The notes under the pieces were generated by a model that saw nothing but the letters and a program-made list of their open reading frames with translations, ran no database searches and was not told the DNA's origin. Source: a virus. From it: DNA of 26,232 bases. A program made the position numbers and the translations under genes. Location: the IMG/VR virus record IMGVR_UViG_3300045947_000369, positions 1-26,232 of that record; one strand, 5' to 3'. Of the stretch, positions 1 to 22,515 are shown piece by piece; the first letter of the stretch is position 1; each line of letters starts with the position of its first letter.

Positions 1-228
1 AGCGTCAGGGACAGCGTCAGGGACAGCGTCGGGGACAGCGTCTGGGCCAGCGTCGGGGACAGCGTCTGGGCCAACGTCTGGGACAACGTCTGGGACAACG
101 TCAGGGCCAGCGTCTGGGCTAGCGTCAGGAACAGCGTCTGGACTAGCGTCGGGGACAGTGTCGGGGCCAGCGTCAGGGACAGCGTCAGGGACAGCGTCGG
201 GGACAGCGTCGGGGACAACGTCGGGGAC
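1..228 (+). repeat. 12-bp in-frame coding tandem repeat (19 units visible)
   Basis: Nineteen consecutive 12-base units follow the pattern (a/g)(g/a)c-gtc-(a/t/g)gg-(g/a)(a/c)c, with no change in period, and each encodes one S/N-V-x-x tetrapeptide. Variation falls mainly at the third codon (agg, ggg, tgg give R, G, W) and the fourth (gac, gcc, aac, act, gct). The array starts before the window and ends where agcggttacgga begins at 229. Confidence 0.95.
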
Positions 229-852
229 AGCGGTTACGGACAGCACGATGCGAGTTGGATAGGGTTCTACGCGTACTTCCGCGATGTCTGTGGATTGCAA
301 GAAGAGACAGACAAACTGCGCGGCCTGACGGAACTTGCTCAATCCGCTGGATGGTTTCTGCCGCATGCGAACATCTGCTGGGTTGCGGAGCGGCACAACG
401 TTCTGAGTCGCGATGAGCAGGGGCGTCTGCACTCGCTGACAGGTCCCGCCGTCGCCTATCCGGACGGCTGGAGTATCTACGCCGTCCACGGCGTTCGCGT
501 GCCAGCGGACGTGATCGAGGAACCGGAGAGCGTCACTGTCGCACGCATCGAGAAAGAAGAGAATGCGGAAGTGCGCCGCGTGATGATTGAAAGAATGGGC
601 TACGAGCGGTACCTGCTGGAGTCTGGAGCGCAATTGATCCACTCCGACGAGTGCGGCGCGCTATACCGGAAGGAGATTCCGGACGATGAGCCGGTTGTCG
701 CGGTGCATGTCTTGAATGCCACGCCGGAAGCGGATGGAAGTTCAAAGCGCTACATGATCCGGGTTCCGCCGACCATGACGCGGGCGCGGGAAGCCGTGGC
801 CTGGACGTTCAACGTGCCGGAGCACGCATATCGACCGGCGATCGAGACATAA
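1..852 (+). CDS. DUF6745-like protein with N-terminal tetrapeptide repeats, 5' partial
   Basis: The frame is open from the first base of the window to the TAA at 850-852, so the true start lies upstream; the TTG at 295 is only an internal codon. The visible 283 residues have two parts. Residues 1-76 are nineteen tetrapeptides of the form (S/N)-V-(R/G/W)-(D/A/N/T). Residues 77-283 resemble the DUF6745 family, with stretches such as GLTELAQSAGW, GPAVAYPDGWSIYAVHGVRV, NAEVRRVMIERMG and a C-terminal RVPPT...AREAVAWTF. The molecular function of this family is unknown to me, and I see no catalytic motif. It is followed after 2 bases by the next gene of the operon. The family recognition is from memory of its conserved strings, not a search. 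Confidence 0.8.
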   Translation, partial: SVRDSVRDSVGDSVWASVGDSVWANVWDNVWDNVRASVWASVRNSVWTSVGDSVGASVRDSVRDSVGDSVGDNVGDSGYGQHDASWIGFYAYFRDVCGLQEETDKLRGLTELAQSAGWFLPHANICWVAERHNVLSRDEQGRLHSLTGPAVAYPDGWSIYAVHGVRVPADVIEEPESVTVARIEKEENAEVRRVMIERMGYERYLLESGAQLIHSDECGALYRKEIPDDEPVVAVHVLNATPEADGSSKRYMIRVPPTMTRAREAVAWTFNVPEHAYRPAIET

Positions 853-2541: not shown

Positions 2542-2948
2542 CGGACGACGAACGACTGGGCCGGCGGCGCGAGCTCCTCAAGGATGCGGGCTGGCGCGGC
2601 GCCCTGACGATCTTCTCGAGCCGGCTGCTGGCCGATCGCGGCGAGGTGTGGAACCACGTCGATCTCGACCGGCGCGAGATTCACATCGAGGCCATGCTCG
2701 ATGGTTACGGCGTCATGTCGAGCGGCGAGAAAGCTTTGATCGATTTCGCGCTGTCGCTCTACACGACGGGACCGCAGGTCAATCTCTACAGCGTGTTCGC
2801 GCGGGTGGATGATGACAAGGCCCTGCTGTTGCGGGATGCGATCTTCAACTTTCTCGCCGACTGTCGCGCGCTTCAACGGCGCATCGCCATCGACGTGGTT
2901 CTCGAGCGCATGGACAGAAGGCCGCGGTATGCCGTTTCCGAAGACTGA
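2538..2948 (+). CDS. Hypothetical phage protein, 136 aa
   Basis: The ATG at 2538 overlaps the previous stop and follows the strong ribosome site AAGGAGG by about 4 bases. I therefore reject the longer upstream extension of this frame to 2283. The product begins MTDDERLGRRRELLKDAGWR and is mostly helical, with EKALIDFALSLY and LLLRDAIFNFLADCRALQRR. No domain recognised; it is soluble by composition. Its 3' end overlaps the next gene. Confidence 0.7.
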   Translation: MTDDERLGRRRELLKDAGWRGALTIFSSRLLADRGEVWNHVDLDRREIHIEAMLDGYGVMSSGEKALIDFALSLYTTGPQVNLYSVFARVDDDKALLLRDAIFNFLADCRALQRRIAIDVVLERMDRRPRYAVSED

Positions 2949-3135
2949 GGACGAACTGATCGCGCAGGGTTATCGCTACAAGAACAGCGGGAAGTGCCGC
3001 GGCTGTCAGGCGGCGATCCAGTGGTGGACGACGCCGGCGACGAAGTTTATGCCGCTCGATCCCGGCACGCTCGAACCGCACTGGGGAACGTGTCCGGAGC
3101 GGGAACAGTTCAAGAAGAAGCTTTCAAAAACATAA
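2929..3135 (+). CDS. Small zinc-ribbon-like protein, 68 aa
   Basis: The start ATG at 2929 lies inside the preceding gene, with AAGG about 7 bases upstream. The 68 residues begin MPFPKTEDELIAQGYRYKNS and carry CRGCQAAIQWWTTP at residues 20-33, then FMPLDPGTLEPHWGTCPE. The pattern CxxC ... W-W-x-T-P ... M-P-L-D ... H-x-x-x-C-P belongs to a widespread small protein type in phages and bacteria, with C20, C23, H52 and C56 as likely zinc ligands. The biochemical role is not known. Confidence 0.75.
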   Translation: MPFPKTEDELIAQGYRYKNSGKCRGCQAAIQWWTTPATKFMPLDPGTLEPHWGTCPEREQFKKKLSKT

Positions 3136-3144
3136 GGAGCCCCC

Positions 3145-3693
3145 ATGTCCCAACCCCAGCGCCTGCCCGGAATGGAAGACCCGGCCATCGAAGAATTGCA
3201 GCAGGCCGCCATCGAATACGCCGCCACGCGCGACCGCCGACAGAAGCTGACCGCGCGCGAGTCCGAATTGAAGCAGACGCTGCTGGCGCTGATGCGCCGG
3301 CACAAGAAGCGGATTTATTCCTGCGACGGCGTGGAAATTGAACGGGTGTCGGAGGAAGAGACGGTGAAGGTGCGGGTGCGCAAGGCGACGGAAGACGACG
3401 ACGCGCCGGAAGTTGCAGACGAGGATGCCGCTGCGGTATGCTGCCGGCTCTGCGAGGCGCCGAACCCGGCATTCGTCACCCAGGACCGGAAATTTTATTA
3501 CTGCGAGAAATGTGAAGTGAACAAACAGGAGGGCGAGGTGCTCGTGCGCATCCGTGACAGCGCGAAGGCGGAGGCGATCGTCGAGGAATTATCGGGCGAC
3601 AGCGACGAGTCCGCGCGCGTCGATCCGCTCGAGGACGAGGCGCAGTTCATCAACCAGCGGAACCGCGGACGCCGGCGAAAGGTGAAACCATGA
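3145..3693 (+). CDS. Hypothetical phage protein with helical N-terminus and zinc-ribbon-like centre, 182 aa
   Basis: The ATG at 3145 follows AAGGAG by 5 bases. The N-terminal half (residues about 10-55) is a charged helix, possibly a coiled coil. It is followed by an acidic linker (ATEDDDAPEVADEDAA), then CCRLCEAPNPAF and FYYCEKCEVNK, a CxxC...CxxC zinc-ribbon candidate. The tail is basic (NRGRRRKVKP). This mix suggests nucleic-acid or protein binding, but that is inference. The stop overlaps the next ATG. Confidence 0.75.
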   Translation: MSQPQRLPGMEDPAIEELQQAAIEYAATRDRRQKLTARESELKQTLLALMRRHKKRIYSCDGVEIERVSEEETVKVRVRKATEDDDAPEVADEDAAAVCCRLCEAPNPAFVTQDRKFYYCEKCEVNKQEGEVLVRIRDSAKAEAIVEELSGDSDESARVDPLEDEAQFINQRNRGRRRKVKP

Positions 3694-3854
3694 TGTTGCC
3701 ACGTTGCTGCATCGAGAGTTTGGCTTTGAAAGGTCTGGCCACCTTCTTTGAATTGGCCGTCGAGGGTGACGAGTACGAGTGTGATCGCTGTGGGACGGTT
3801 CTGGTGCTGAAAGGCGACTACTGGACCGTGAAGGAGGCGCGCGCCAATGCCTGA
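3690..3854 (+). CDS. Small CxxC protein, 54 aa
   Basis: This short gene fills the gap between its neighbours. The ATG at 3690 overlaps the previous stop (ATGA), and its TGA at 3852-3854 overlaps the next start by 8 bases. An ATG at 3693 is an alternative. The product reads MMLPRCCIESLALKGLATFF, continues with YECDRCGTVLVLKGDYW and ends EARANA. The CC near the N-terminus and the CDRCG could form a zinc knuckle. Function unknown. Confidence 0.55.
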   Translation: MMLPRCCIESLALKGLATFFELAVEGDEYECDRCGTVLVLKGDYWTVKEARANA

Positions 3855-6822: not shown

Positions 6823-7272
6823 TTACTCCGTTGATGGCGGATAGAGTGGCTGGTCCTCCGCAGGCGGCGGCGCCTGCCTGAAGACCGTCACGCCATTCAT
6901 CTGCACTTCGATATCGGTCAATCCCCAGACGCGCTCATTGGCCAGCGGCAGCAGGACGGTGGCGAAAAGATCGTCGAAAAACGCCTTCGGATAATTCCGC
7001 CGCAGGCTGCCGTTGTCGAGAAACAAGCCGGTAAAGGTCGGCTCGATAATGGACAGGTGGGCGAGGCTCGCCTGGCGCTGCGGGTCGAGGCGGAAGCGGT
7101 CGTCGGAGGCCACGCTGCCGAAACCCAGCACGAACTGCGCCACGAGATCGATGGCATTGATGCTGAACGACACCACGCGCACGCGGTCCACGTCGACGGC
7201 TTCGACGCTGCGCGCGGCCGGATCGATCATCACGGCCATGACGCCGAGCGCAGGGACGAGCTTTCCTTCCAT
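6823..7272 (-). CDS. Hypothetical tail-region protein, 149 aa
   Basis: This gene lies between the large tail-tip gene and the fibre-like gene, separated by 2-3 bases from each, so it is surely in the same transcript. The product begins MEGKLVPALGVMAVMIDPAA, is strand-rich in the first half and has an ANERVWGLTDIEVQMNG segment and a proline-rich end (APPPAEDQPLYPPSTE). It is likely a small tail-tip or fibre-attachment component by position only; the family is not recognised. Confidence 0.65.
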   Translation of the reverse strand: MEGKLVPALGVMAVMIDPAARSVEAVDVDRVRVVSFSINAIDLVAQFVLGFGSVASDDRFRLDPQRQASLAHLSIIEPTFTGLFLDNGSLRRNYPKAFFDDLFATVLLPLANERVWGLTDIEVQMNGVTVFRQAPPPAEDQPLYPPSTE

Positions 7273-7275
7273 ACG

Positions 7276-10200
7276 TTACACCGCGTTTCCTTTGATGAAG
7301 CCCGAACCGTCGATGAAAAGCGAATAGCGCGTGCCGGACAGCGTGATATGGGTGATCGTATCGCCGAAAGCGGCGCGCAGCTGGCCATCGGTGTAGATTT
7401 CGAAATTGTCGCCGAAAGCGATCGAGCTCGACTCATCCGACGCCAGCATGCCCTGGCCTTTCGGCACGCTCGGACTGCCGGGCCGCGTCCCGGACACCGG
7501 CACCTGAAAGCGTAATTGACCGGAAGCGTTGAAGGCCCGCAGGCCGTTGGTGGAATCCATCACGACGCGGGCGCCGCTCGCGGCCGTCTGGATGGTGGCG
7601 CCGGTAATCGTCCCGGCGGTGATGGTTCCCATATTCGCGTTGATGGCGCCGAGGTTCGCCACGCTGATTTTCGAGGCAATGACCGCGCCGGCCACAATCT
7701 TCGGCGTCGTCACGGCGTCCGGGCCGATCTTCGTTTCCGTTACGGCGCCGACCTCGAGCAGGTCTTCGGTAATGGCGGCCAGCGCGATGTGCAGGGTATC
7801 GACGGCGCCGGCCGCGATGTTGCCACCTTCAATGGCGCCGGCGCCGATCTCGCCGCCGGTAATGCCGTCGAAGGTTTCCGTCACCGTCGTGGCATGCACC
7901 TTGCCCTGGCCGTGCAGATTCCACAGCGCCACCCAAATATAAATCGTGGGAATGCCGGAGACGAATTTGATACGCCGCTTGCGCGAGCCGCGCTCGTCGG
8001 CCGTCGTCAGGATGCCTTCGTTGACGATCGGCGGCGGATAGTACTTCACCTTTTCTTCGAAGTGATGCCCGGCGCCGCTATCGATGACATGGAAGCCATA
8101 ACCGGACGCGCTGCGTTTCATCAATTGCGCCGGCGTGTCGATGGCGATCGTGTTGGCGCTATTCGAGACAATGCGGCCGGACCAGAACAGGCCCTCGAGG
8201 TCCCAGGAGGGCGAGACGGCGCGCGAGGGATGGAAGATCAGGAGATCTTTGCCGGCGAGCTCGTCCGCCGTCCAGCCGGGACTCGGCGTTACCGTCAGCG
8301 TCTGCGAGCCGGCCGCCATGGCGAGCGTATAACCGCTGGCGAAGCCGTCCACATACTTGGTCGACACCGGCAGGGTCGGGCTGTCGTGGATGATCGGCGA
8401 ATAGCCCCAATAGCTCGAGGAATTGGCGGTCGGGATCGTAAAGGAAATTTCAAACTCGTTGCCGGCCAGGTGGTCGCCGCCCGGATCGCCCTGCTTCAAA
8501 ACGCCCGGCGTGACCGCCGCCATGATGGCGGTATCTTCCGAGAGGTTGTCGTCGAAATTGGTGGCCCGCCCGAGCGTCGCCGACCAGGCCGAAAAGCCGA
8601 AACTGTTTTTCACCCGCGCGCGGAAATAATAGGTGCCGGGAAAGTTCGTCCGGAAGCCCTCGGTGAACGGCGGCCGCAGGCTATAGGACTGCTGGAGCGA
8701 GCGCCCGAGAGGAAACTCGAGAAAGTCGGCGCTGGTCGTGATCTCGAGTTCCGTCTCGACAATGCCGGCCCAGTTGGCGGCGCCACCGGGCTTGTCGATG
8801 CCGGCGAGAAACTCGTACTCATTGGTATTGAACGAGCCGATATTGCGCACCACGCCAATGAGCGGCGCCGCCGGGATGCCGGTATCGGCGCCGGCGCCCG
8901 AAGGCGAGGTGCTCGTCAGTGGCCCGGCCGCCGGGCCCTCGGAAAGCAGGATCGAGTAGCCCGTCACCCAGTAGTAGTAGGTCGTATCCGGCGCCACGCT
9001 GCCGTCGATGAACAGCGTCCCGTCGAGCGTATCGAGCGGCTCGAGCGGTCGCGTCGACGATGGGCTGCGGTAGATGCGGAACTCTTTGAACAGCGGCTGG
9101 AATTCCGGCGCGTATTTGTCCCAGCGCAGCGTCACGGTCGTGGCGCCGACGAAAATCTGGAAGTTGCCCGGCGCCGGCAGCACGTCGGTCACGCCGTCGA
9201 CCAGCAGCGTGAAGCGCGGATATTTGTAATTGCCGTCGGCGCCGCGGGTTTCGATGTCGGGAATAAAGCCGGTCAACGCCTTCGACAGCGCCGCAAAGAT
9301 CGTCACCACGCCCGTGACGGGAACGTGAATTGTCGTGCCTGGATTGAACAGCTCGATCACGCGGTCCCATTTCAGGCCGCCGTCCTCGCTCTTGTAGATC
9401 ACGCACGAGCGGTAATTGAGCAGCGGATCCGGTTCGGTATACAGGAACGTCAGCGCCGAGACGGGTTTGTTGTTGGCGTCGAAGGCGCCGGCCTCGAGGA
9501 CCGAAAAGGCGGTGACCGCCGGCGGTTCGGCATCGAAGGGCGGCGGCGGATCCACCCGCTCGAACTTCGTGACGGTAAATGCCGTATCGTCGAACATCGC
9601 ATTGTCATGGATCGAGGCCTCGATCACGCGCCCGAAGAGCAGTCCGCCGTCGTCGGTGCGGATCGGCTCATCATGCATGCGCAAGACGCGGAAATAGGCG
9701 GCGCCGGAGGACAGGCGCCGGCTGCGCAACTCGACGATATCGCCCGGCTCGAGGTCGGCGGTATCGCGATAGGCCGCCTTCCAGGTCGCGATGCGGTTAT
9801 TCGAGCGGCCGCCTTCGGCAAACTCCCCGGCGCGCAGGATCAGCGTGCCGATGCGGGCCGCTTCATCGAGCGTCGTCACGCCGGGCAGGCGCACGACCTT
9901 GACGAGCGGCTCCATCGACTGGTCGCCGCGCTTCAGGCCCGCTTCGCGCTGGGCGTCGCGATCCGCAATAATGGCCCGCACTTTCACATACTCGAACCCA
10001 GGCTCGAGGCTGACGAACTCGACGTGGACCTCGTTCGGTATTTCCGTCGAGAGGCGCCGGCGGAAGACGAGGCTCGAGCGGTCGTTTTCCCAGATCACGT
10101 TCCGGCCGGCAACGCTCGTGGCCGCCTCGTCGAATACCGGAATGCCCGTCAGGTTTTCCGCCTTCAGGACTTTCAGCTTCAGCTTGCCGTCTTTGTCGGG

Positions 10201-12411: not shown

Positions 12412-14379
12412 TTAAAGTTCGTCCCCCGTCAGCTTGCTGCCCGAGGTGCGGCGAAACGTATTGTCGGTGTCGTAGAAGGTGCGCATTTTCGTTTTCAAAA
12501 ATGCGTCGGACGGCACGCCTTCCAGCCGCTCGAGGTTGCGGTTCAGGCGATCGAGCGTCGAGGTCAGTGGCGACATCATGCCGCCGCTTTCGAACGGGTT
12601 CTCGTTGAAGTAGAGCGTCCGTTCGCTGCCGGCGCGGTTGGCGAAGGGATCCGCGGTGAACGGCGCTTCCTGGGTTTTGTGGCCGAACAGCTTCGACAGG
12701 GCAAGGCCGCCGAGAATGCCGCCGCCGATGATCGCCGTCCAGGGATTCGTGAACAGCGCGCCCAGGCCGGCGAGCGCGCCGCCGCCGGCTGCCGCCGCAC
12801 CGCCCGCCACGCCGATCGACGGGATGGCCGGCGCCGCAATGGCGAGACCCGGGATCCACGAGGCATTCACGGCCGCGCCCGCCGCCACCGTGGAACCCAG
12901 CGAGGCCGCCGCGCCGCCACCGAAACCCAGCAGGCCGCCGAGTCCGGGCACGCGCCCGAGCTGGCCGAGCAGGCCGCCGCCGCCCTGGCCGCCGAGGATC
13001 GAGGTGGCGATGTTCTGGAACATCGTGCGGCCGGCCGTCAGGCCGATACCTTTGAAAAAGTCGGCGAGGCTGGCGCCCTGCTGAAAGATCATGTCGAAGA
13101 TCGCGCCCGCGGCGCTGTGGATATTCTGCAGCATCGTTTCCGTCGCGCGCTCCATCTGGGCCAGCATGCGCTCGTGCGCCGCCGCCTGGCTGTTGGCGAC
13201 ATCCTCGTTGGCTTTGATCAGCAGCGCCCGCCGTTCGTCGATCACTTCCTGGGTGCGCCGCATGATGGCGTCGAACTGCGATTCGAACATGGTGGTACTG
13301 CCAAGCGTGACCGGCGGCGGCACCACCAGGCCGCCTTTGAGGAGGGTTTCAAACTGACTGGGCGCTAATTCTTCACTGACCATGCGGGCGATCCGGGCCT
13401 GAATATCTTTCAATTGGATCAGTGCCTTGGCCGCGGCTTCTTCGGCGCGTTTTGTGGCTTCGGTCCAAGCCTTACTCGCCGCAGCGGCCGCCGCCTGATG
13501 CGCTTTGGCAGCGGCAGCGGCAGTTTCCTGCTGCGCCTTGGCGGTGTCCACAGCCGACTGCTTGACCGCCTCCGTCTGCTTGTATTCCAGCTTGGTGATT
13601 TCGAGGTTGATAGCGCGCATGTCCTCCTGTATGCGTTTCATCTCGTCCGTATCCCGGACAACGGGCCGCACGTCGGTCGGTCGCTTCGCCAGATTTTGAA
13701 ACTCCAGGCGTTCGGCCTTCTTGCGGGCTTCATCCAGTCCCGACTGCAACTGACGAAGCCGCGCCTGGCGATCGGCAATTTGCTTATCGAGCAGCTGTGC
13801 TTCGCTCGCGCCGGCAATCCGCAACATCGCCAGTTGGTGCTCTTCGAGCGCGTCCACAGCCTGCCGGTTATATTGAAGGAAATTCGCATATGCCCGCTTC
13901 GCCGTTTCATCCCAGCCGGTGATGGCGCCGGAAATCTTTTCAAACAGCGCCGGCAGCTGAGCGAGCACCTGGATCAGGCCGAGCACCGCGACGCCCGAGA
14001 ACGCCGCCGACATCGCCGGCCCGATCATGGAACTCTTCGATAAAAACTTGGTGACGCCTTCCGGCAGGTTGATGCCGATCTCGCGCGTCAGGAGCTGGAT
14101 CGACGCCGCCGCGTTTTCGGTCGACTTCACCGCCGTATCGCCGGCCTTCTTGTAGGCCTGGCCGAAGACGTCGGCTTTTTTAGCGGCGTTTTCCCAGCCC
14201 TGCGCGATCTTGTTGGCGGTGTCCGCCTTGAAGCCGCGCTCCATCAGGCCCATGGCCGCCTGCGTCTGGCGCGTCGTCTTGCCGAAATTGTCGACGGCCT
14301 GCTGCGAGGTCTTCAGGCCGTTATTGAAGTTCTGATTGGCGAGTTCGAGCTGAACGGTGAGGGTGGAGATGGGAGGCAT
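12412..14379 (-). CDS. Tail tape measure protein, 655 aa
   Basis: Tape measure proteins set tail length and leave through the tail tube. This one has an N-terminal helical part, a hydrophobic segment at about 117-146 (MIGPAMSAAFSGVAVLGLIQ), a long charged and alanine-rich coiled coil at about 170-340, and a second helical region to about 420. A glycine/alanine-rich hydrophobic block follows at about 462-565 (GGQGGGGLLGQLGRVPGLGG). It comes right after the tail chaperone/gp10-like genes. Using the general ratio of about 0.15 nm per residue, the tail would be near 100 nm, which is an estimate only. No peptidoglycan hydrolase motif is seen. Confidence 0.85.
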   Translation of the reverse strand: MPPISTLTVQLELANQNFNNGLKTSQQAVDNFGKTTRQTQAAMGLMERGFKADTANKIAQGWENAAKKADVFGQAYKKAGDTAVKSTENAAASIQLLTREIGINLPEGVTKFLSKSSMIGPAMSAAFSGVAVLGLIQVLAQLPALFEKISGAITGWDETAKRAYANFLQYNRQAVDALEEHQLAMLRIAGASEAQLLDKQIADRQARLRQLQSGLDEARKKAERLEFQNLAKRPTDVRPVVRDTDEMKRIQEDMRAINLEITKLEYKQTEAVKQSAVDTAKAQQETAAAAAKAHQAAAAAASKAWTEATKRAEEAAAKALIQLKDIQARIARMVSEELAPSQFETLLKGGLVVPPPVTLGSTTMFESQFDAIMRRTQEVIDERRALLIKANEDVANSQAAAHERMLAQMERATETMLQNIHSAAGAIFDMIFQQGASLADFFKGIGLTAGRTMFQNIATSILGGQGGGGLLGQLGRVPGLGGLLGFGGGAAASLGSTVAAGAAVNASWIPGLAIAAPAIPSIGVAGGAAAAGGGALAGLGALFTNPWTAIIGGGILGGLALSKLFGHKTQEAPFTADPFANRAGSERTLYFNENPFESGGMMSPLTSTLDRLNRNLERLEGVPSDAFLKTKMRTFYDTDNTFRRTSGSKLTGDEL

Positions 14380-14384
14380 TGGCG

Positions 14385-14786
14385 TTAATTGTTGCGGAAG
14401 TAGTCCTCTATGCCTTTGGCCAGGCGGGCCGCCATGCGCTTGACGGCGTTTTCCTTTTCGAGCTCAAAGGCGGGCCGGAGAAACGGCTTCGGCCGCTGGT
14501 GGACGGTGCCGAGTTCGGCGAAGCGGCCCATGAAACCTTTTCGCGATGGTCCGATTTTGGCGGCGAGGGTGTCCTTGGCGATCGGCTGAATATCGACCAC
14601 GATATTGTCGCGGATGCGCGAACCCGTCGTCTTCGGATCGTCCGGCGCCAGGGCTGCCGCCCGCTGCCGGATCGGCTCGGCGCCATCGCGCAAGGCGTCG
14701 ACCGCCAGTTCGACCTGGAGAACGGCCGGCAGCCCGCCGAGCGCCTTCAGCAAGGCATCGAGTCCCTGTACCGGTTCAGTCGCCAT
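14385..14786 (-). CDS. HK97 gp10-like neck/tail protein, 133 aa
   Basis: I chose the ATG at 14786 because the product from there (MATEPVQGLDALLKALGGLP) matches the start of HK97 gp10-like proteins; the longer frame upstream reads S/R-rich shadow sequence. Typical elements follow: RAAALAPDDPKTTGSRIRDN, AAKIGPSRKGFMGRFAELGT and PKPFLRPAFE with a basic helical end. The family (lambda Z / HK97 gp10) sits at the head-proximal end of the tail. Unusually, it lies after the tube and chaperone genes, just before the tape measure. Confidence 0.82.
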   Translation of the reverse strand: MATEPVQGLDALLKALGGLPAVLQVELAVDALRDGAEPIRQRAAALAPDDPKTTGSRIRDNIVVDIQPIAKDTLAAKIGPSRKGFMGRFAELGTVHQRPKPFLRPAFELEKENAVKRMAARLAKGIEDYFRNN

Positions 14787-14790
14787 TGTG

Positions 14791-15488
14791 CTAATTTTCC
14801 ACCGGTTTTCCCGCCGCCTCGATGGCGGCGTTCTGCGCCCGCTGGATCGCGCGCATGATCTCGAGCTGCTGGGCCGCCGTTTGCCGCACTGGCGGCCGGC
14901 TTTCCCACTCCAGCAGAAAATCGTTGATCCCGTAAGGCTGCGCCCGCCGCCGGCTGTCGCGGTAGATATTCGCGATGACCGAGGCCAGCATGGCGACCTG
15001 GATATCGCCGCGGCGGTCGCCAAACGGCTCGAGCTGTTCGTAGAGAGCGGCTTCGGCGAACTCGGAGGCCGGCATGCCGTCGATCTCGTGCGGGAATTTC
15101 CCTAGATAGCCGGCGAGGCGCCAGCGGAAGCGGCGGCCGGGTTCTCGGAGTTTTTTTTTGCCGCCTCGACGGCCGCGGCGGAAAAGCCGTTCAGTTCCGT
15201 GGCCTGCTCGATCAATCGCGCGGCGACGGTGCTGCTCATCCGGGCCAGGTTGGCGATATCGTCGTCGCTCGTGAACAGCCGCTGGCCGTTCGCGTCGACG
15301 ATCGACAGCGCCAGCTGGCGCGCCGGATCGCGCATGGCCGGATCGGTCAGCAATTGCTGGGCCTCGGCGATCGACAGCTCGCGCAGGATCACGGCACAGC
15401 CCCATTCCGGAATATCGACGGTCTTGGTCTTGCGCCGCGCTTCGAAATTCATCTGCCGGTCGAGATATTTCCCGTTGCTGCTCGTCAT
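14791..15488 (-). CDS. Tail assembly chaperone GT (predicted -1 frameshift product, 232 aa)
   Basis: Translation would start at 15488 as for the G-like protein, read 112 codons, shift back one base on the nine-A run and continue K-L-R-E-P-G-R-R to the stop at 14791-14793. The 119 residues after the junction include GKFPHEIDGMPASEFAEAAL and LEPFGDRRGDIQVAMLASVI, close to gpT-like/DUF4035 proteins. The T part has no usable own start, since the open frame before it is shadow, which supports the frameshift. G and GT chaperones coat the tape measure during tail building; this pairing is the classic arrangement of long-tailed phages. Confidence 0.82.
15102..15488 (-). CDS. Tail assembly chaperone G-like, 128 aa
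   Basis: The product of normal decoding begins MTSSNGKYLDRQMNFEARRK and includes GCAVILRELSIAEAQQLL and ARQLALSIVDANGQRLFTSD, which is typical of phage tail assembly chaperones: an N-terminal strand region with a WG/RELS element, then D-x-x-G-x-x-L-F. It ends soon after the slippery codons (residues 111-113, K-K-N). It lies between the tail tube gene and the gp10-like/tape measure genes, as expected for gpG. Confidence 0.83.
   Translation of the reverse strand: MTSSNGKYLDRQMNFEARRKTKTVDIPEWGCAVILRELSIAEAQQLLTDPAMRDPARQLALSIVDANGQRLFTSDDDIANLARMSSTVAARLIEQATELNGFSAAAVEAAKKNSENPAAASAGASPAI
15150..15159 (-). promoter_or_regulatory. Slippery sequence for programmed -1 frameshift
   Basis: The - strand reads GC-AAAAAAAAA-C. 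In the G frame this is GCA AAA AAA AAC, containing both A-AAA-AAA and A-AAA-AAC heptamers. Slipping back one base joins the G frame to the T frame. Nine T on the + strand at 15151-15159 is the longest homopolymer I noticed in the window. Confidence 0.85.
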
Positions 15489-15503: not shown

Positions 15504-15917
15504 TTATGCCGGCCAGGTGATGGCGCCGCTGATTTTGATCGCGAAGGTCGCGTTGACGACGGCATTCGCCGTAATCGGGCCGACGCGAGACACGCGCACC
15601 AGACCGCTGAAGCTGATGGTTTCGCTGTTGGCATAGGGCGGCGGCGGGAAGACGACCTGGATGGCTTTGAGCGTCCGGGTCTGCTGCGCCGCGATCAGAC
15701 TTTTGTGGGTCGCGTCCGACGGACTGTAGTTGACCGTGACCGGAAATTCCACGCCGTCGGCCAGGCCATAGACGTACTCCTTCGCCGGCGAGGCCAGGTG
15801 CGTGGCCTCGATCAGGTCGGTTTCCTGGCCGAATTCGCCGATATTCGTCACTTCGAACACGGCCACGGTGTCGACTTTCAAGAGAACTTGCGAACCGATA
15901 AACGCGTCGGTGGGCAC
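15504..15917 (-). CDS. Major tail tube protein, 137 aa
   Basis: The 137-residue product is strand-rich and resembles lambda gpV N-terminal/tail tube proteins: VLLKVDTVAVFEVTNIGEF, then the DLIEATHLASPAKEYVYGL motif (about 34-52) and ADGVEFPVTVNY. A mid-segment FPPPPYANSETISFSGLVRV and the C-terminal ANAVVNATFAIKISGAITW follow. It would polymerise into the non-contractile tail tube. It directly precedes the chaperone G gene in transcription order, the standard position. No extra Ig-like C-terminal domain is present. Confidence 0.85.
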   Translation of the reverse strand: MPTDAFIGSQVLLKVDTVAVFEVTNIGEFGQETDLIEATHLASPAKEYVYGLADGVEFPVTVNYSPSDATHKSLIAAQQTRTLKAIQVVFPPPPYANSETISFSGLVRVSRVGPITANAVVNATFAIKISGAITWPA

Positions 15918-15944
15918 GGATGTTTACCTCCGGAAAAAGGGTTT

Positions 15945-16304
15945 TCAACTCGGCGGCCGGATGATAGGCAGCCCTTCGGCATAGTCACGCGCGATCGAGC
16001 CGAGGTGCGTGGCTTCGATCATTTCGCTGAAGTCGCATTCGATGACGACCAGACTTTTGCGGAGATCCGCTATGGCGCTGGTGATATTCCACAGCGCGCC
16101 CCAGAAGCGGATGCGGTGCGTATCCGGCCGCAGGTCGGCCCGGTAGCGCAGGGTGAAGCGCGCCTGCGTTTCGCTCAGCCGTTCCGGCTCGGCCGACAGC
16201 CGCAGCGCCGGCAGCCATTCGATGACGGCCTGATGGTGCGCGTTATAGGTGATCGTCTTGCGGTCGATGTCGATCACCTCCAGAAAACGCCCGGCGCGGC
16301 TCAT
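15945..16304 (-). CDS. Head closure / tail completion-like protein, 119 aa
   Basis: The product begins MSRAGRFLEVIDIDRKTITY and has the strand pattern of small head-closure proteins: ARFTLRYRADLRPDTHRIRF, then WGALWNITSAIADLRKSLVV followed by IECDF. R-x-x-x-x-x-W-N-I and LR...L-V-I-E-C-D match the GxxWxI...L-x-L-x-C layout of SPP1 gp16 / HK97 gp7-like proteins. The last 25 residues are odd: EMIEATHLGSIARDYAEGL copies a motif of the adjacent tail tube protein. Position between the connector and the tube gene supports the assignment. It starts 2 bases after the connector gene ends, without a clear ribosome site. Confidence 0.72.
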   Translation of the reverse strand: MSRAGRFLEVIDIDRKTITYNAHHQAVIEWLPALRLSAEPERLSETQARFTLRYRADLRPDTHRIRFWGALWNITSAIADLRKSLVVIECDFSEMIEATHLGSIARDYAEGLPIIRPPS

Positions 16305-16306
16305 GG

Positions 16307-16603
16307 TCAGGCGAGCGTCGGATCCCGATAGCGCTCGAGCAGCGCCACGACGGCCTCCGAAATCAGGTTGACGTTACTCGCTTCGCGGTTGTAGTAGAGC
16401 TCGCTGAGTTCGAGTAGCGTCGCCGCCTGCACGAGCGGCGGCGCCGGCGACGGCCAGTCCGCCGGAGTGTCTTTCCGCTTCAGGTAATTGAGCACGATCT
16501 CGGAGGCCTGGCGGATCTTGGCGGCGATATCGGCGTCGTGATCGCTGTCCTCCACGCGCAGGTGCCGCTTCGCCGTATCGAGCATCACGAGATCCGGGAT
16601 CAT
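16307..16603 (-). CDS. Head-tail connector protein (HK97 gp6-like), 98 aa
   Basis: I start at the ATG at 16603, which overlaps the stop of the previous gene (ATGA). Further upstream this frame is a shadow of the collagen-like gene. The product, MIPDLVMLDTAKRHLRVEDS then DADIAAKIRQASEIVLNYLK, follows the connector pattern L-x-x-A-K-x-H-L-R-V...D-x-D-I...I-x-x-A-x-x-x-V-x-x-Y-L. AATLLELSELYYNRE then gives the second helix. This small helical protein forms the ring under the portal. The call is strong for the size and motif order. Confidence 0.85.
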   Translation of the reverse strand: MIPDLVMLDTAKRHLRVEDSDHDADIAAKIRQASEIVLNYLKRKDTPADWPSPAPPLVQAATLLELSELYYNREASNVNLISEAVVALLERYRDPTLA

Positions 16604-17394
16604 GGCTTGCCATCCTTGCCGTCTTTGCCGTCCTTGCCCGGACTGCCGCGTTTGACGGCGAGCGTCCAATCCGCCGTGCCCGGCCGCGCCGTCGTCGTCT
16701 CGGCGTCGCAGTGCCACAACGAGCCGCTATAGGTGACGGCATCGCCGCGGCGGTACGTCTGGCCTTCCTGAAACACGCTGCGATAGATCAGCGCCGGGAC
16801 CGGGAAGCTGAAGTGATTCTTTGAGCCGCTCGAGCGGTGGACGGTGAAATCGAGCGTGCGGCCTTCGTCATGTTGCGCCATGTCCACGAAGCACACGCCG
16901 TCGACGATATTTTCCCAATCGAGGAAATGACTGGCTTCCGCCGGCCGCGTCTGCCGCACCGCCAACCACAGCCCGCCGGCGTGCCGCGCCAGCGTGCCGC
17001 GCGGATACGAACGCATGGGATCGATGGCGGACTCGATCGTCAGTTCGAAGGCGTCGCGGCCGTCCTTGCCGTCGTGGCCATCCCGGCCATCGCGGCCATC
17101 TTTACCGTCGCGGCCGTGCTCGACGACCGGCCGCCGCTCGAGCTCCTCGACGCGAAGCCGCAGGCCGTCGTCGCTCAAGCCATCCTTGCCGTCGCGGCCG
17201 TCTTTGCCGTCCCGGCCGTCTTTGCCATCATGGCCGTCGCGGCCGTCCTTGCCGTGCTCCACCGCGAGGCCGGCCAGGCGCCGCTCCAGTTCCTCCAGCC
17301 GGGCGACGATCGCGGTCAGGGCCTCGCCGACCGATCGCCGGACGAAGCCGGCCAGCGCCTTGACGAGCGCCGTGCGTTCGGCCGCCTCGATCAT
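16600..17394 (-). CDS. Collagen-like protein with two carbohydrate-binding-like modules, 264 aa
   Basis: The order is an N-terminal helix (1-45), a Gly-X-Y collagen-like block (about 48-72, GKDGRDGHDGKDG type), a short coiled segment (73-93) and a second collagen block (94-114). A beta domain follows, including YPRGTLARHAGGLWLAVRQT (130-149), then a second similar module YRRGDAVTYSGSLWHCDAET (214-233) with W243, and a third short collagen end (250-263). The two modules share Y-x-R-G...G-x-L-W, as in CBM5/12-like folds. It sits between portal and connector, overlapping both by ATGA. It may be a neck or head fibre that binds sugars, which is inference. Alternative: part of a tail whisker. Confidence 0.75.
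   Translation of the reverse strand: MIEAAERTALVKALAGFVRRSVGEALTAIVARLEELERRLAGLAVEHGKDGRDGHDGKDGRDGKDGRDGKDGLSDDGLRLRVEELERRPVVEHGRDGKDGRDGRDGHDGKDGRDAFELTIESAIDPMRSYPRGTLARHAGGLWLAVRQTRPAEASHFLDWENIVDGVCFVDMAQHDEGRTLDFTVHRSSGSKNHFSFPVPALIYRSVFQEGQTYRRGDAVTYSGSLWHCDAETTTARPGTADWTLAVKRGSPGKDGKDGKDGKP
16606..16647 (-). repeat. Gly-X-Y coding repeats, C-terminal block
   Basis: These 9-base-like repeats (GGC AAG GAC on the - strand) encode GSPGKDGKDGKDGK at the C-terminus of the collagen-like gene. Confidence 0.8.
17053..17115 (-). repeat. Gly-X-Y coding repeats, second block
   Basis: Tandem GGN-(AAG/CGC/CAT/CGG)-GAC codons encode GRDGKDGRDGRDGHDGKDGR (residues 94-113), a run of collagen triplets. 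Confidence 0.9.
17179..17253 (-). repeat. Gly-X-Y coding repeats, first block
   Basis: Eight collagen triplets beginning GKDGRDGHDGKDGRDGKDG are encoded at residues 48-72 by near-identical 9-base units, a likely site for repeat-number change. Confidence 0.9.
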
Positions 17395-18734
17395 CGACGG
17401 AGGACTGCCTCCTCCAGGTCGAACTCCGCTTCGTATTGCGCTTCGAGATCTTTCACCGCCGGCGGCGCCGGCGGCGCCGGCGTGATCGGCTGCGGCTCGC
17501 TATCGCGTTTCGCCAGTGCTTCAAGGCTGTAGTTCTGCTGCTGGATCATCGGCGAATCGCCGCCGTCGACCGGCTGGAGGTTCGCCCGGAAGCGGGCTTC
17601 GTTCGGCGACAGCCAGGCGCCGCTGACGCCCTTGTTGTTCGAGTCGTAGAGGCTCTGCGTATCCATACGCAACAGGTTTTCGATATCGAGCGTGCAGTGG
17701 TAATCGACGGGCAGGCGCAGGCCTTCCTCGAGGCACAGCTCCAGCGCCTCGACGAGCGGCTGCAGACAATCGGTGTAATACTGCATCGTCAGGGCTTCCG
17801 GCCCGCTCGAGTAGGGCGGCACGCCGCCGCCGAGCTTGTAGGTGGGATAGTGAAACGCCCGCGCGACGTCCTCGACGGTCCACTTCAACTGCTCGACCAG
17901 TTGACTCGATTCGGCCGTCAGTACCATCGGCTCGAATTTCAAGCCGTCGCCGAGCACCGCCAGGCGGCCGAAATTGGCGCCGCTGAAATTAGCCTCAAAC
18001 GCCGTCTTCAGGCGCAGCGCCGTGTCGTCGCCAATATGCCCGGGCGCCGTCAGGATGCCGCCCGGCATCGCGCGGTTGCCGAACAGGTGCGTCGAGCTTT
18101 CCTGAATCTTCAGTCCTTGATTCGCGCTCGCCGCGCAGGCGACGATCGGCGGCACGCCCACCAGCGGATGCCAGAGCGGGCACATCACGTCGTGGATCAT
18201 TTCGCCGGCCGGCACCGTCACGGCATCCTCGACCTGCGAGAGCGCGTCCGTATTGAGCTGGTAATAGACGCCGCCGTCATCGGTGACGAGCGGCCGCACG
18301 CGCAGCGGATCGAGGATGTACAACGTCGTCACGATGCCGCGCTCGTCGCGGCCCTTCAGTGCGTAGGTGTTGCCGGCCAGCAGTTTCGACACGATCCACT
18401 GCTGCAGAAACTGAAGGCGGTTCTGATAGTGATTGGGCTTCCGCAGCACCGGCAGCCAGGGCGAGCCCGTTTTGATCTCCGTCCAGATGCCATCGACGTC
18501 CTGCTCGAGCTTGATGCGCATCTTCGCGATATCGGAGGCAATGCCGGTCACAGTGGCATAGACCGCCGAGAAACACAGCAGGCCGGGCTGATTGGCAATG
18601 GTGACGTTCTGTTGCCAGGCGCCCGTGAAGGACTCGCGCACCCGCGGCCACCAGCCGAGCCAGCTGCCGGCGGGCGAGGCCGGCACGTAGGCTTTCGCAA
18701 TCGCCAGTTCGAAACCGAACGCGCGCAGCTTCAT
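17391..18734 (-). CDS. Portal protein, HK97 family, 447 aa
   Basis: The 447-residue protein is typical in length for HK97-type portals. Recognisable stretches include CFSAVYATVTGIASDIAKMR near the N-terminus, LLAGNTYALKGRDERG, LYILDPLRVRPLV and GEMIHDVMCPLWHPLVGVPP. Also present are QESSTHLFGNRAMPGGILTA, RLAVLGDGLKFEPMVLTAES and the C-terminal wing region with ARAFHYPTYKLG. The dodecameric portal forms the DNA entry ring at the capsid vertex. The C-terminus is proline-rich then acidic. It overlaps the following collagen-like gene by 4 bases. Confidence 0.93.
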   Translation of the reverse strand: MKLRAFGFELAIAKAYVPASPAGSWLGWWPRVRESFTGAWQQNVTIANQPGLLCFSAVYATVTGIASDIAKMRIKLEQDVDGIWTEIKTGSPWLPVLRKPNHYQNRLQFLQQWIVSKLLAGNTYALKGRDERGIVTTLYILDPLRVRPLVTDDGGVYYQLNTDALSQVEDAVTVPAGEMIHDVMCPLWHPLVGVPPIVACAASANQGLKIQESSTHLFGNRAMPGGILTAPGHIGDDTALRLKTAFEANFSGANFGRLAVLGDGLKFEPMVLTAESSQLVEQLKWTVEDVARAFHYPTYKLGGGVPPYSSGPEALTMQYYTDCLQPLVEALELCLEEGLRLPVDYHCTLDIENLLRMDTQSLYDSNNKGVSGAWLSPNEARFRANLQPVDGGDSPMIQQQNYSLEALAKRDSEPQPITPAPPAPPAVKDLEAQYEAEFDLEEAVLRR

Positions 18735-18953: not shown

Positions 18954-20882
18954 TTATCCGGCAACGTAGGCGGCCGGTGAGATAAAGGCGACGGAGGCGG
19001 TCTTGGCGCGCTTCCAGGTCACGAAGCGGTCGACGCGCAGGCCGACGAGGTTGTTTTGCCACAAGCTGACGAGCGCCTGGTCCGGCGGCACGTCCGGCGT
19101 GGTCGACATGATCAGCGACGCTTCCTCGCTGACGTCGATTTCCACGCCGCCGTCCTCGGCCAGCAGAATGTCGCTCGCGTTGACGAGAATGATCTTCGTT
19201 CCGACCGTTTCGCTCACCACCGCGGGCAGGCCCATGATGGTACCGCCGTTGACGCCGATACCCGGAAACTCGGACTGCCCGAGCGGGTTCTGCATCAAGC
19301 TCAAGTTCAGCGCCTGCGTCGCCGACATCAGCACGACGGCGCCGGTCGGGTCGTTATTGGCGGTCACGAAGGCGCCCATCAGCGTCCCCATATCTTTCCG
19401 GAAGGCGTCCGCCGTCGTGCCGGTCGGCGCCACCGGCGTGATGCCGTTGGTGATCGAGGCCGGGCTGACGTTGGCCACCTCCGCCACCGCCGGATCGACG
19501 AACTGCTGGTCCATGAACTGCGCCGTGCCTTTCACCATATCGTCGCGCACGATCGCTTCCGCCGAAGGGTTGGAGAACTTCACGAGCTCCTTCGTTAGCA
19601 CGATGATGCCGGCCACCTTCGCCCAGCGCAGGCTGACCTGCGAAAACGTCAGGGCGCCGACCGGCTTCTTCACGTTTTCCCCGACCCAGCCGTAAAGGCC
19701 GCCGGCAGTCTGCGCCGGCAGGGTGACGTTGAATGGCACGCGCCGTAAGCCCGGAATGCGGCCAATCACGGTGGCCGGCCGCAGCAGCTCGAGGAACTCG
19801 CCCATGACGTTCGTCGCGTTCGGCACGAGATAGCCCGCCCAGGCCGGCGCCGTGGTCGTGCCGGGCGGCGTGTCGGCCTTCAGCAGCAGCTCGACTTCCG
19901 GCGTCGAGTCCGCCCACTGCCGGCGCGCCATGTCGGCCGCTTCGAATTTGTTTCCGCGGCAGGAGGCCAGCGCCATCACATAACGCGAAAACGCCGTCCC
20001 CTTCGGCAGGTTCGAGCGTACCGTGACGACGCTCGATGCGCCGCCGTTCGCATGGCCGCCGCGCGTCGCCGAAGCCGCCGCGGCCGTCTGTGTCGTCTCC
20101 CCTGCAATCGCCGTGCCGCGCGTGATCAACGCTTTTTCATGCGCGCGCAGCCGCACCAGGTGATCGTCAACCGCTTTCACTTCGCGCGCGAGGCCGTCGT
20201 ATTCCTCGGTTTCCGCTTCGTCGAGCGTCCGGCCCTCATCGCCCGCCTTCGCCATGATGGCGGCCATGCGCGCCGCCGTCGCCGCGCGTTTGTTTTCAAA
20301 ATTCGCGATCTGCTCTTGTGTCGTCACGTCGTTGTCCCGTAATGCTGCGCCTGTAACGCCAGGCCGGATGATCGTGCCTCGTGCAGCCAGTCGCACCACC
20401 GGGCACTCGCCATTGCCGGACACGGCGGCGAGTGCAGCGGATTTGACGGCCAGTATCGTCGCTTCGGAATTGGCCGGGATGGTCACGGCCGAGAGTTCGA
20501 TCCATTCGGTGCGCAGAAAATGAAAGCCGCCGCTTTCCCGGTCGTAGCTTTCCTCGAGGCTCTTGAAGCCGATCGACAGGCCGCGCACCAGGCCCGCTTT
20601 GATCAGGTTCCAGGCCTCGTCAATGAAGCCGGCGACGCCGGCCGCGGCCACCTGGGCTTTGACCGTAATGCCGGCCTTCGTCACCTTTGCGGCCAGCACA
20701 TGGCCGATCGGCTGCCGCGAATTGTGCTGGTAGAGCAACGGCAGCGGCAGCTTGAATTCGACGCCCTCCGGGTCGATCACGTCGTTCATGCGATCCGGCG
20801 CCGGCGTGGTGGCGACGCCTTCGATGATGCGGCGATCCTCGTCGGCCGTCTTCCACTGCAATACTGCATAGGCTCGGTTCAT
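18954..20882 (-). CDS. Fused prohead protease and major capsid protein (HK97 type), 642 aa
   Basis: I choose the ATG at 20882: it is preceded by GAGG and lies downstream of the terminase stop. A TTG at 20906 would add 8 residues. Residues 1 to about 150 are an S78-type prohead protease: LLYQHNSRQPIGHV with H53, LVRGLSIGF with S103, and EWIELSAVTIPAN with E129. Residues about 189-254 form a charged helix like the scaffolding delta domain. From about residue 290 comes the HK97-fold capsid, including GYLVPNATNVMGEFLELLRP, SLRWAKVAGIIVLTKEL and ILLAEDGGVEI near the end. Self-cleavage would release the mature capsid protein. The fusion is in one uninterrupted frame. Confidence 0.92.
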   Translation of the reverse strand: MNRAYAVLQWKTADEDRRIIEGVATTPAPDRMNDVIDPEGVEFKLPLPLLYQHNSRQPIGHVLAAKVTKAGITVKAQVAAAGVAGFIDEAWNLIKAGLVRGLSIGFKSLEESYDRESGGFHFLRTEWIELSAVTIPANSEATILAVKSAALAAVSGNGECPVVRLAARGTIIRPGVTGAALRDNDVTTQEQIANFENKRAATAARMAAIMAKAGDEGRTLDEAETEEYDGLAREVKAVDDHLVRLRAHEKALITRGTAIAGETTQTAAAASATRGGHANGGASSVVTVRSNLPKGTAFSRYVMALASCRGNKFEAADMARRQWADSTPEVELLLKADTPPGTTTAPAWAGYLVPNATNVMGEFLELLRPATVIGRIPGLRRVPFNVTLPAQTAGGLYGWVGENVKKPVGALTFSQVSLRWAKVAGIIVLTKELVKFSNPSAEAIVRDDMVKGTAQFMDQQFVDPAVAEVANVSPASITNGITPVAPTGTTADAFRKDMGTLMGAFVTANNDPTGAVVLMSATQALNLSLMQNPLGQSEFPGIGVNGGTIMGLPAVVSETVGTKIILVNASDILLAEDGGVEIDVSEEASLIMSTTPDVPPDQALVSLWQNNLVGLRVDRFVTWKRAKTASVAFISPAAYVAG

Positions 20883-20898
20883 CAGCGCACCTCGTTTT

Positions 20899-22515
20899 TC
20901 AGACAAACAGCATCTGGTAATCGGGCGCCACGTTCTGCGACGCCGCCAGATTCAGCGCCATCGCCAGCGCCACCACGCCGTCGATTCGCCCCGTGGAGTT
21001 CTTCTTGTCGAATTTCCGATTGCCGGCCGCATCCCGCAACAGGCGCACGTTGTCCATGCACCAGGTCAGGACGGGATTGTTTGGATGCTGCAGTCGCCAG
21101 GCGAGCGCCAGATCCTCGAGCGTCCGGACGGCCGGATCGAGATCCTTGAAGCCCTGGCCGTGCTTGAAGAGCTGGATCTGATGCGCGCCGACATCGCTCA
21201 ACGCCTGATTGAATTTGTCGATCTGCCAGGGATCGCAGGCGACGGCCTTCAGCTCGTAAGGCGCCGTCAGCTCGGCAATCGCACTGGCAACGTATTCGTA
21301 ATCGATCACCTTGCCCGGCGTCGTCCGCAGATGTCCCTGCCGCGCCCACAGCGCGTAAGCCGCGCGATCCTTCGCGCCGCGGTCGTCGATGCCGTCCTGG
21401 CGTGTCCAGAAAAACGGCAACGCGACCACATGCTCGTCAAACGGAAACGCCAGCACGAACGCCGTCAGATCGTTCTTCTCCGACAGGTCGAGGCCGCCGT
21501 AACACGGCCGGCCCTTCAGCAGTTCGGCCAGCGCGTCGACTTCCGCCTGCGACTTGATGCCGCAGGCGTCCCAGTCCGGCCGCGGGATGTAACGCAGTTC
21601 GGCCGGCGAAAAACGCTGGTTGAGATAGAACAGCCGGAAGGCCGTTTCCTGTTCCGGAATACGCTGGGCCTTGACGGCGTAGTCCCGCATCTCCTGCAAC
21701 GAGCGAAAATCGCCGAGCGCCGGATTGCACGCATGCCAGGTTCGCTCGTCCCACGGGTCGGCATCGTCCGGCGCCGTATAAATGCAGCCGTAAAACGACG
21801 GATCCTCGATCACGCCGTCGCGCACCTGGCGGGCATAATCCACCCGCTCGCTCATGATGTGCTTCGGATCGCTCGATTGCGTCGAGATCACGATGCCGAG
21901 CGGCTCTCTGCGGGCGCCGGTCGAGGTCGACAACACGTCATAGAGCTTGCGGTCGTGCGCCTGCGCCAGTTCGTCGTACACCCAGAAGCTTGCCGAGAAG
22001 CCGTGCTTCGACTTGGCATCCGCCGACAGCGCGATGTACTTCGAGCCGGTCTCGATGTCCTCGATATCTTTCGTGAAATCCCGCACGTTGCACCGCCGCT
22101 CGAGCCACGGCACCTGCGCGATGATCGCTTTCATTTCGTCAAACAGCAGCGCCGCCTGCTTGCGCTCGGCCGCCGCGGAATACACCTGGCCGCGCGGCAC
22201 CGCTTCCGGCCCGCAGAGGTGACAGAGGGTTAAGGCGGCGATCAGTCCCGTTTTGCCGTTCTTTCGCGGCATGGTGATCAGCACTTCGCGGACAACTCGC
22301 TTGCCGTTGACGGTGCGGTACATGCCCTTGAGGATTTCGTGCTGCCAGGATCGCAGTTTGAACTTTTTGCCCGCGAGCGCGCCGGACGTCACCGGCAGCG
22401 CCTCGACAAAACACACGATCCGCTCGAGGCGGCCGAGGCCGGCTTTCATCCATGCCGGCTTGCCGCTGCGCTTGCGGATCGACAGCGGTTTGGCGTTAAT
22501 GCCGCGTAAGCCCAT
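20899..22515 (-). CDS. terL: Terminase large subunit, 538 aa
   Basis: This is the ATP-driven DNA packaging motor and nuclease. Visible motifs are the Walker A-like PRKNGKT at 83-89, Walker B FWVYDE at 177-182 with D181-E182, and coupling motif STQSS at 211-215. The nuclease acidic residues are D343 in GGLDLSEKNDL, D428 in ACDPWQ and D512 in GRIDGVVALAMA. The N-terminus MGLRGINAKPL is normal for HK97-like Terminase_1 proteins, so the start is likely right although no clear ribosome site precedes it. A TAG 12-14 bases upstream closes the frame. A small subunit is not recognisable next to it. Confidence 0.95.
   Translation of the reverse strand: MGLRGINAKPLSIRKRSGKPAWMKAGLGRLERIVCFVEALPVTSGALAGKKFKLRSWQHEILKGMYRTVNGKRVVREVLITMPRKNGKTGLIAALTLCHLCGPEAVPRGQVYSAAAERKQAALLFDEMKAIIAQVPWLERRCNVRDFTKDIEDIETGSKYIALSADAKSKHGFSASFWVYDELAQAHDRKLYDVLSTSTGARREPLGIVISTQSSDPKHIMSERVDYARQVRDGVIEDPSFYGCIYTAPDDADPWDERTWHACNPALGDFRSLQEMRDYAVKAQRIPEQETAFRLFYLNQRFSPAELRYIPRPDWDACGIKSQAEVDALAELLKGRPCYGGLDLSEKNDLTAFVLAFPFDEHVVALPFFWTRQDGIDDRGAKDRAAYALWARQGHLRTTPGKVIDYEYVASAIAELTAPYELKAVACDPWQIDKFNQALSDVGAHQIQLFKHGQGFKDLDPAVRTLEDLALAWRLQHPNNPVLTWCMDNVRLLRDAAGNRKFDKKNSTGRIDGVVALAMALNLAASQNVAPDYQMLFV

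Follow-up and report, generated by a model that had tools for sequence, protein, structure and literature searches.

Several described systems bear on how a tail tube is joined to the head of a siphovirus. In SPP1, residues 43–51 of the head-completion protein (HCP) gp16 become a tunnel helix that narrows the channel to about 12 Å (PMC9701221). In RcGTA, the stopper directs its corresponding long loop, together with its C-terminus, toward the terminator, which docks on the tail tube protein (TTP) through a long loop of its own (PMC7296036). Within tail tubes, the main inter-ring contact is made by the β2-β3 loop, which folds onto the subjacent ring (PMC8718954). The neck of phage JBD30 has one ring fewer, and the ring beside the tube puts a long loop between the TTP loops L1 and L2, the site that also receives the hinge loop of the overlying TTP (PMC11445458). 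In 80alpha, the end of the DNA is capped by a gp10/Z-like completion protein (PMC11661146).

Here we analysed the virus record IMGVR_UViG_3300045947_000369 over its positions 1 to 26,232 (the window, 26,232 nt). Its HCP shares with the SPP1 gp16/HK97 gp7-type proteins (PF05521) the core match (PF05521, phrog_25) and the place after a gp6-like adaptor, but it is without the 12 residues that align with the gate helix and carries a C-terminal extension of 24–26 aa. As in lambda and HK97, the neck genes comprise portal, adaptor, HCP, a gp10/Z-like completion protein, G/T-like chaperones and tape measure, whereas a U/gp11-like terminator was not detected, the HCP gene directly precedes the TTP gene and the gp10-like gene follows the chaperones. 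The RcGTA neck is similar in that its stopper has a non-gating loop and a C-terminus that points toward the tail, but RcGTA possesses a separate terminator ring. The likeness to JBD30 would lie in a stack shorter by one ring from adaptor to tube and in a neck-ring loop using the hinge-loop pocket of the tube. In JBD30, however, that ring is the terminator-family protein gp42, while here the HCP is kept and no terminator was detected. JBD30 is a structural precedent for the docking of a neck ring on the tube without sequence copying; the gp42 loop does not resemble the tube protein of JBD30 in sequence (P = 0.43). We found no description of a copied tube loop in a neck protein in the open-access literature searched, which does not in itself prove novelty.

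The gp42 protein (L043, 1509–1982), called "stopper" in PMC11445458, matches PF23840 Phage_tail_terminator with E = 1.2e-44. Judged from this match, the ring missing from JBD30 may be the stopper and not the terminator.

Morphogenesis operon and terminator search

Open reading frame, Pfam and PHROG searches identified a siphovirus morphogenesis operon on the minus strand of the window, in which some functions were given from gene position:

20899–22515 (-), terminase
18954–20906 (-), fused prohead protease-major capsid ORF, 650 aa (phrog_617)
17391–18734 (-), portal
16600–17394 (-), collagen-like/portal-C-terminal-like protein (phrog_1289, phrog_2271)
16307–16603 (-), gp6-like head-tail adaptor Ad1 (PF05135, phrog_40)
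15945–16304 (-), HCP, head-completion (stopper-like) protein with TTP-like C-terminal extension, 119 aa (PF05521, E = 4e-6; phrog_25, head closure Hc1)
15504–15917 (-), TTP, tail tube protein, 137 aa (PF16460, E = 5e-11; phrog_158, E = 1.5e-20)
15102–15488 (-), tail assembly chaperone (phrog_344, E = 2.5e-23)
14791–15105 (-), lambda T-like tail assembly protein (PF06223, E = 1.8e-16)
14385–14786 (-), approximate start, HK97 gp10-like tail completion/Neck1 protein (PF04883, phrog_5)
12412–14379 (-), tape measure protein (phrog_1538, E = 1e-4, and position)
beyond the tape measure in operon order, minor tail, hub and spike genes

Since a tape measure gene is present, a long tail is expected. The PF05521 match of the HCP scores 27.8 bits against the curated cut-off of 25 (29.4 bits in the distant relative described below), and the adaptor-HCP gene order of PF05521 proteins is present, with Ad1 directly upstream. 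The gene for the gp10/Z-like completion protein has been retained.

Three further features of the window were observed. Protease and capsid are joined in one ORF, as also annotated in PAJU2. The protein encoded at 16600–17394 has collagen-like repeats and, in its C-terminal half, a match to the C-terminus of long portal proteins, so that it looks as if split off the portal. At the left end of the window (1–250, plus strand), low-complexity five-residue repeats of the DSVxxSV type are open at the contig end.

A terminator gene was sought with four families. PF11367 had no match in the window, and PF23840, phrog_347 and phrog_78 had none in the window or in either of its two relatives, while the positive control for the phrog_347 search gave matches in three of four control phages. 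The HCP and TTP genes are separated by 27 bp, and the genes from portal to tape measure all follow closely on one another, leaving no terminator-sized gap; in the comparison phages the gp10-like and terminator genes lie between HCP and TTP. These sequence searches indicate that a terminator gene is likely absent from the phage; this is likely rather than proven because terminators diverge strongly, being poorly conserved in sequence across phages (PMC11784142).

A tube segment in the head-completion protein

Four elements of the HCP and TTP are considered here:

16170–16175 (-), approximate HCP S44-E45 junction, site of the 12-residue deletion (alignment with SPP1 gp16)
15948–16025 (-), HCP C-terminal extension past the core, about aa 94–119 (alignments with ordinary HCPs; kept in the distant relative)
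15969–16019 (-), copied motif IEATHLGSIARDYAEGL in the HCP, aa 96–112 (local alignment, profile comparison)
15762–15812 (-), original motif IEATHLASPAKEYVYGL in the TTP, aa 36–52 (13-TTP alignment, JBD30 gp44 alignment)

The first-pass annotation of this DNA had reported the motif pair, with 11 of 17 residues identical and 18 of 19 bases over the IEATHL part, and this description proved exact to the base. The TTP-like motif falls within the last 24 residues of the HCP. Its BLOSUM62 local score against the TTP is 59, compared with a maximum of 47 among 3,000 shuffles. When the alignment of the HCP (A1) was compared with that of 13 TTPs (A3) by hhalign, HCP residues 93–113 matched TTP residues 33–53 (E = 4e-6, 52% identity). 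The two profiles match nowhere else, hence a whole TTP fold or profile was not found in the HCP by this comparison. Twelve ordinary HCPs used as a control gave no match to the same TTP profile (probability 0.4%), nor did 13 HCP/TTP pairs of other phages show mutual similarity (P from 0.05 to 0.96). In ordinary HCPs the chain stops where the core does; none of the 16 HCPs compared has the 24–26-aa extension. Direct PDB matches to the alignments of the window lineage were nil or meaningless.

The TTP motif aligns with the solved hinge loop 42–62 of JBD30 gp44, usually called β2-β3; of the four columns invariant among the 13 aligned TTPs, it contains three (T39, G51 and L52). By alignment, we assign it as the probable β2-β3 inter-ring hinge loop that docks ring on ring. 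The HCPs of the window and of its distant relative moreover both lack 12 residues, QEEYYKAQQLQT, corresponding to gp16 43–54 in the alignment with ordinary HCPs and SPP1 gp16. The gate loop of the SPP1 gp16 type (β2′-β3, with the tunnel helix at gp16 43–51) is accordingly absent from both lineages in this alignment. The assignment of the motif as inter-ring loop, the absent terminator and the absent gate loop were not part of the first-pass annotation.

Relatives and origin of the copy

A near-identical contig was found, whose HCP and TTP are 97% and 99% identical to those of the window. The single independent relative is IMGVR_UViG_3300050498_000163, with 42% identity in the HCP and 55% in the TTP. 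Loss of the motif in relatives had been named as the finding that would speak for a chance match; the opposite was observed, as this relative has the motif in both genes (HCP IEVTHFQSLVREF, TTP VEVTHMQSTAKEY), and its own HCP and TTP motifs match better than in all of its 3,000 shuffles. Its Pfam match spans positions 54–104 of the 106 in the PF05521 profile, with 28 residues remaining beyond it. Between the two lineages 9 of 24 residues of the extension are identical, about the conservation of the core, and the extension retains residues that TTPs conserve. The motif residues agree within each genome, with A/A and V/V following IE and QS/QS in the relative, which would be compatible with co-evolution of the two motifs, although few sites are involved. 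Between the window and the near-identical contig, four codons of the HCP core carry nonsynonymous changes and no codon of the extension does, though the numbers are tiny. In contig L004, the copied motif lacks the terminal GL (IARHP).

The copied motif is thus represented by two independent lineages, and all three contigs are fragments. Neither scans of viral and genome contigs nor searches of phage and plasmid proteins yielded a third lineage. L037–L041 were rejected as relatives, having the motif in the TTP only and an HCP, where the contig shows one, without it. In these contigs gp10-like and terminator-like genes intervene, where shown, and they were used as controls. L011, L013 and L014 matched the pattern by chance; they encode a protein consisting of variable numbers of SGDARVYGDARV-like repeats, with out-of-frame GMQGF repeats on the same DNA. 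As a separate observation, the distant relative (L015) contains two similar glycosyltransferase-like genes within its morphogenesis module (about 2906–3715 and 7593–8246), one directly before the HCP gene and the other after the tape measure gene, and more non-structural-looking genes upstream.

With regard to the origin of the motif, 36 of 51 bases match between the two genes of the window, where 32.4 are expected from the proteins and the codon usage of the window (P = 0.09); in the relative, 26 bases match versus 28.2 expected (P = 0.88). The identity over 51 nt being unremarkable on this basis, the 18 of 19 identical bases add little. A recent DNA duplication or gene conversion was rejected, as the DNA match does not exceed the codon-usage expectation in either lineage. 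It follows that the copy is old and maintained at the protein level: judged from these sequences, the likeness of the motifs is protein-level conservation, not recent duplication. The earlier proposal of a local duplication may hold for the origin of the copy, but not for a recent event.

Proposed neck and alternative explanations

The reading we favour, at a probability of roughly 55%, is that the HCP gained a copy of the tube docking loop, joins the first tube ring directly and replaces the terminator. The HCP hexamer would be seated on the adaptor ring with its C-termini toward the tail. Its six copied loops would then fill the top pockets of the first TTP ring, which are normally taken by the loop of the TTP above. 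The HCP would thereby pose as the final ring of the tube and assume the joining role of the terminator. With the gate helix lost, the DNA would have to be retained by some other component, of which the gp10-like tail completion protein and the tape measure are the probable candidates. A fuller version is put forward more tentatively, at somewhat less than even odds: an exchange of loops would have produced a one-ring neck, the HCP giving up its gate/docking loop, obtaining that of the tube through duplication and rendering the terminator unnecessary, with the DNA held elsewhere. The first-pass annotation had considered mimicry of the tube surface. The paired motif in a distant relative, the identity of the docking loop and the loss of terminator and gate helix support this idea, while a direct contact between HCP and tube is what we infer, by analogy with JBD30. 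AlphaFold models of HCP and TTP built from three-sequence alignments reached pLDDT values of 42 and 36 and were not used.

The arrangement might also be a relic of fusion, an old deletion or duplication having joined a fragment of a second TTP to the HCP, where it persists as a tolerated, functionless tail. That the HCP gene abuts the TTP gene, with the intervening genes missing or moved, is as expected after a deletion. We nevertheless regard this as unlikely, because, after the HCPs have diverged to 42% identity, extension and core are still conserved to about the same degree, the extension keeps the residues conserved in TTPs, and the peptide persists while synonymous sites have been randomised. 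To be rated no higher is a role of the extension as an assembly chaperone, filling the loop pocket of the free TTP or capping tube growth at a set length without forming a permanent joint. Deletion of the β2-β3 loop releases ring formation in YSD1 and blocks tube growth in SPP1 and T5 (PMC8718954), effects indicating that this loop controls assembly. On the other hand, an HCP normally belongs to the head and is added after packaging, and in RcGTA the stopper has its C-terminus directed at the tail (PMC7296036). The chaperone reading overlaps with the docking explanation.

A divergent terminator could be encoded elsewhere, the HCP extension contacting that terminator or something else. Poor conservation of terminators (PMC11784142) and the fragmentary contigs leave room for this, and an unassigned 149-aa ORF at 6823–7272 is a possible place. 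The tight junctions from portal to tape measure and the null results for four families in the window, three of them also in two relatives, with positive controls, make it rather improbable; besides, it is the tube, and not a terminator partner, whose peptide has been copied. By far the least probable explanation is chance or convergence of short β-strand/loop segments, or residual homology from a shared fold, even though a common ancestral fold underlies HCP, terminator and TTP (PMC7296036). None of 3,000 shuffles reaches the score in either lineage, and together with the profile comparison and the paired motif of the relative this rules out a chance match. The motif lies at aa 36–52 in the TTP but after the barrel in the HCP, so that the positions are not homologous, and the lack of a TTP match in control HCPs rules out general HCP-TTP homology.

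Among phage neck and tube proteins, a single functional part has seemingly been transplanted between members of one fold and is still recognisable. If docking by the copied loop is true, it would illustrate how phages shorten the neck and provide a natural experiment on the necessity of the terminator. A short loop peptide would then be predicted to suffice for docking a foreign ring on a phage tube.

Finally, the terminator and tube protein of Streptomyces phage Chymera (L025, 3157–3582 and 3989–4420) resemble each other locally across the hinge-loop region of the tube protein (score 49, P about 0.001; one of 10 pairs tested), perhaps a further and weaker instance of loop likeness in a neck protein.
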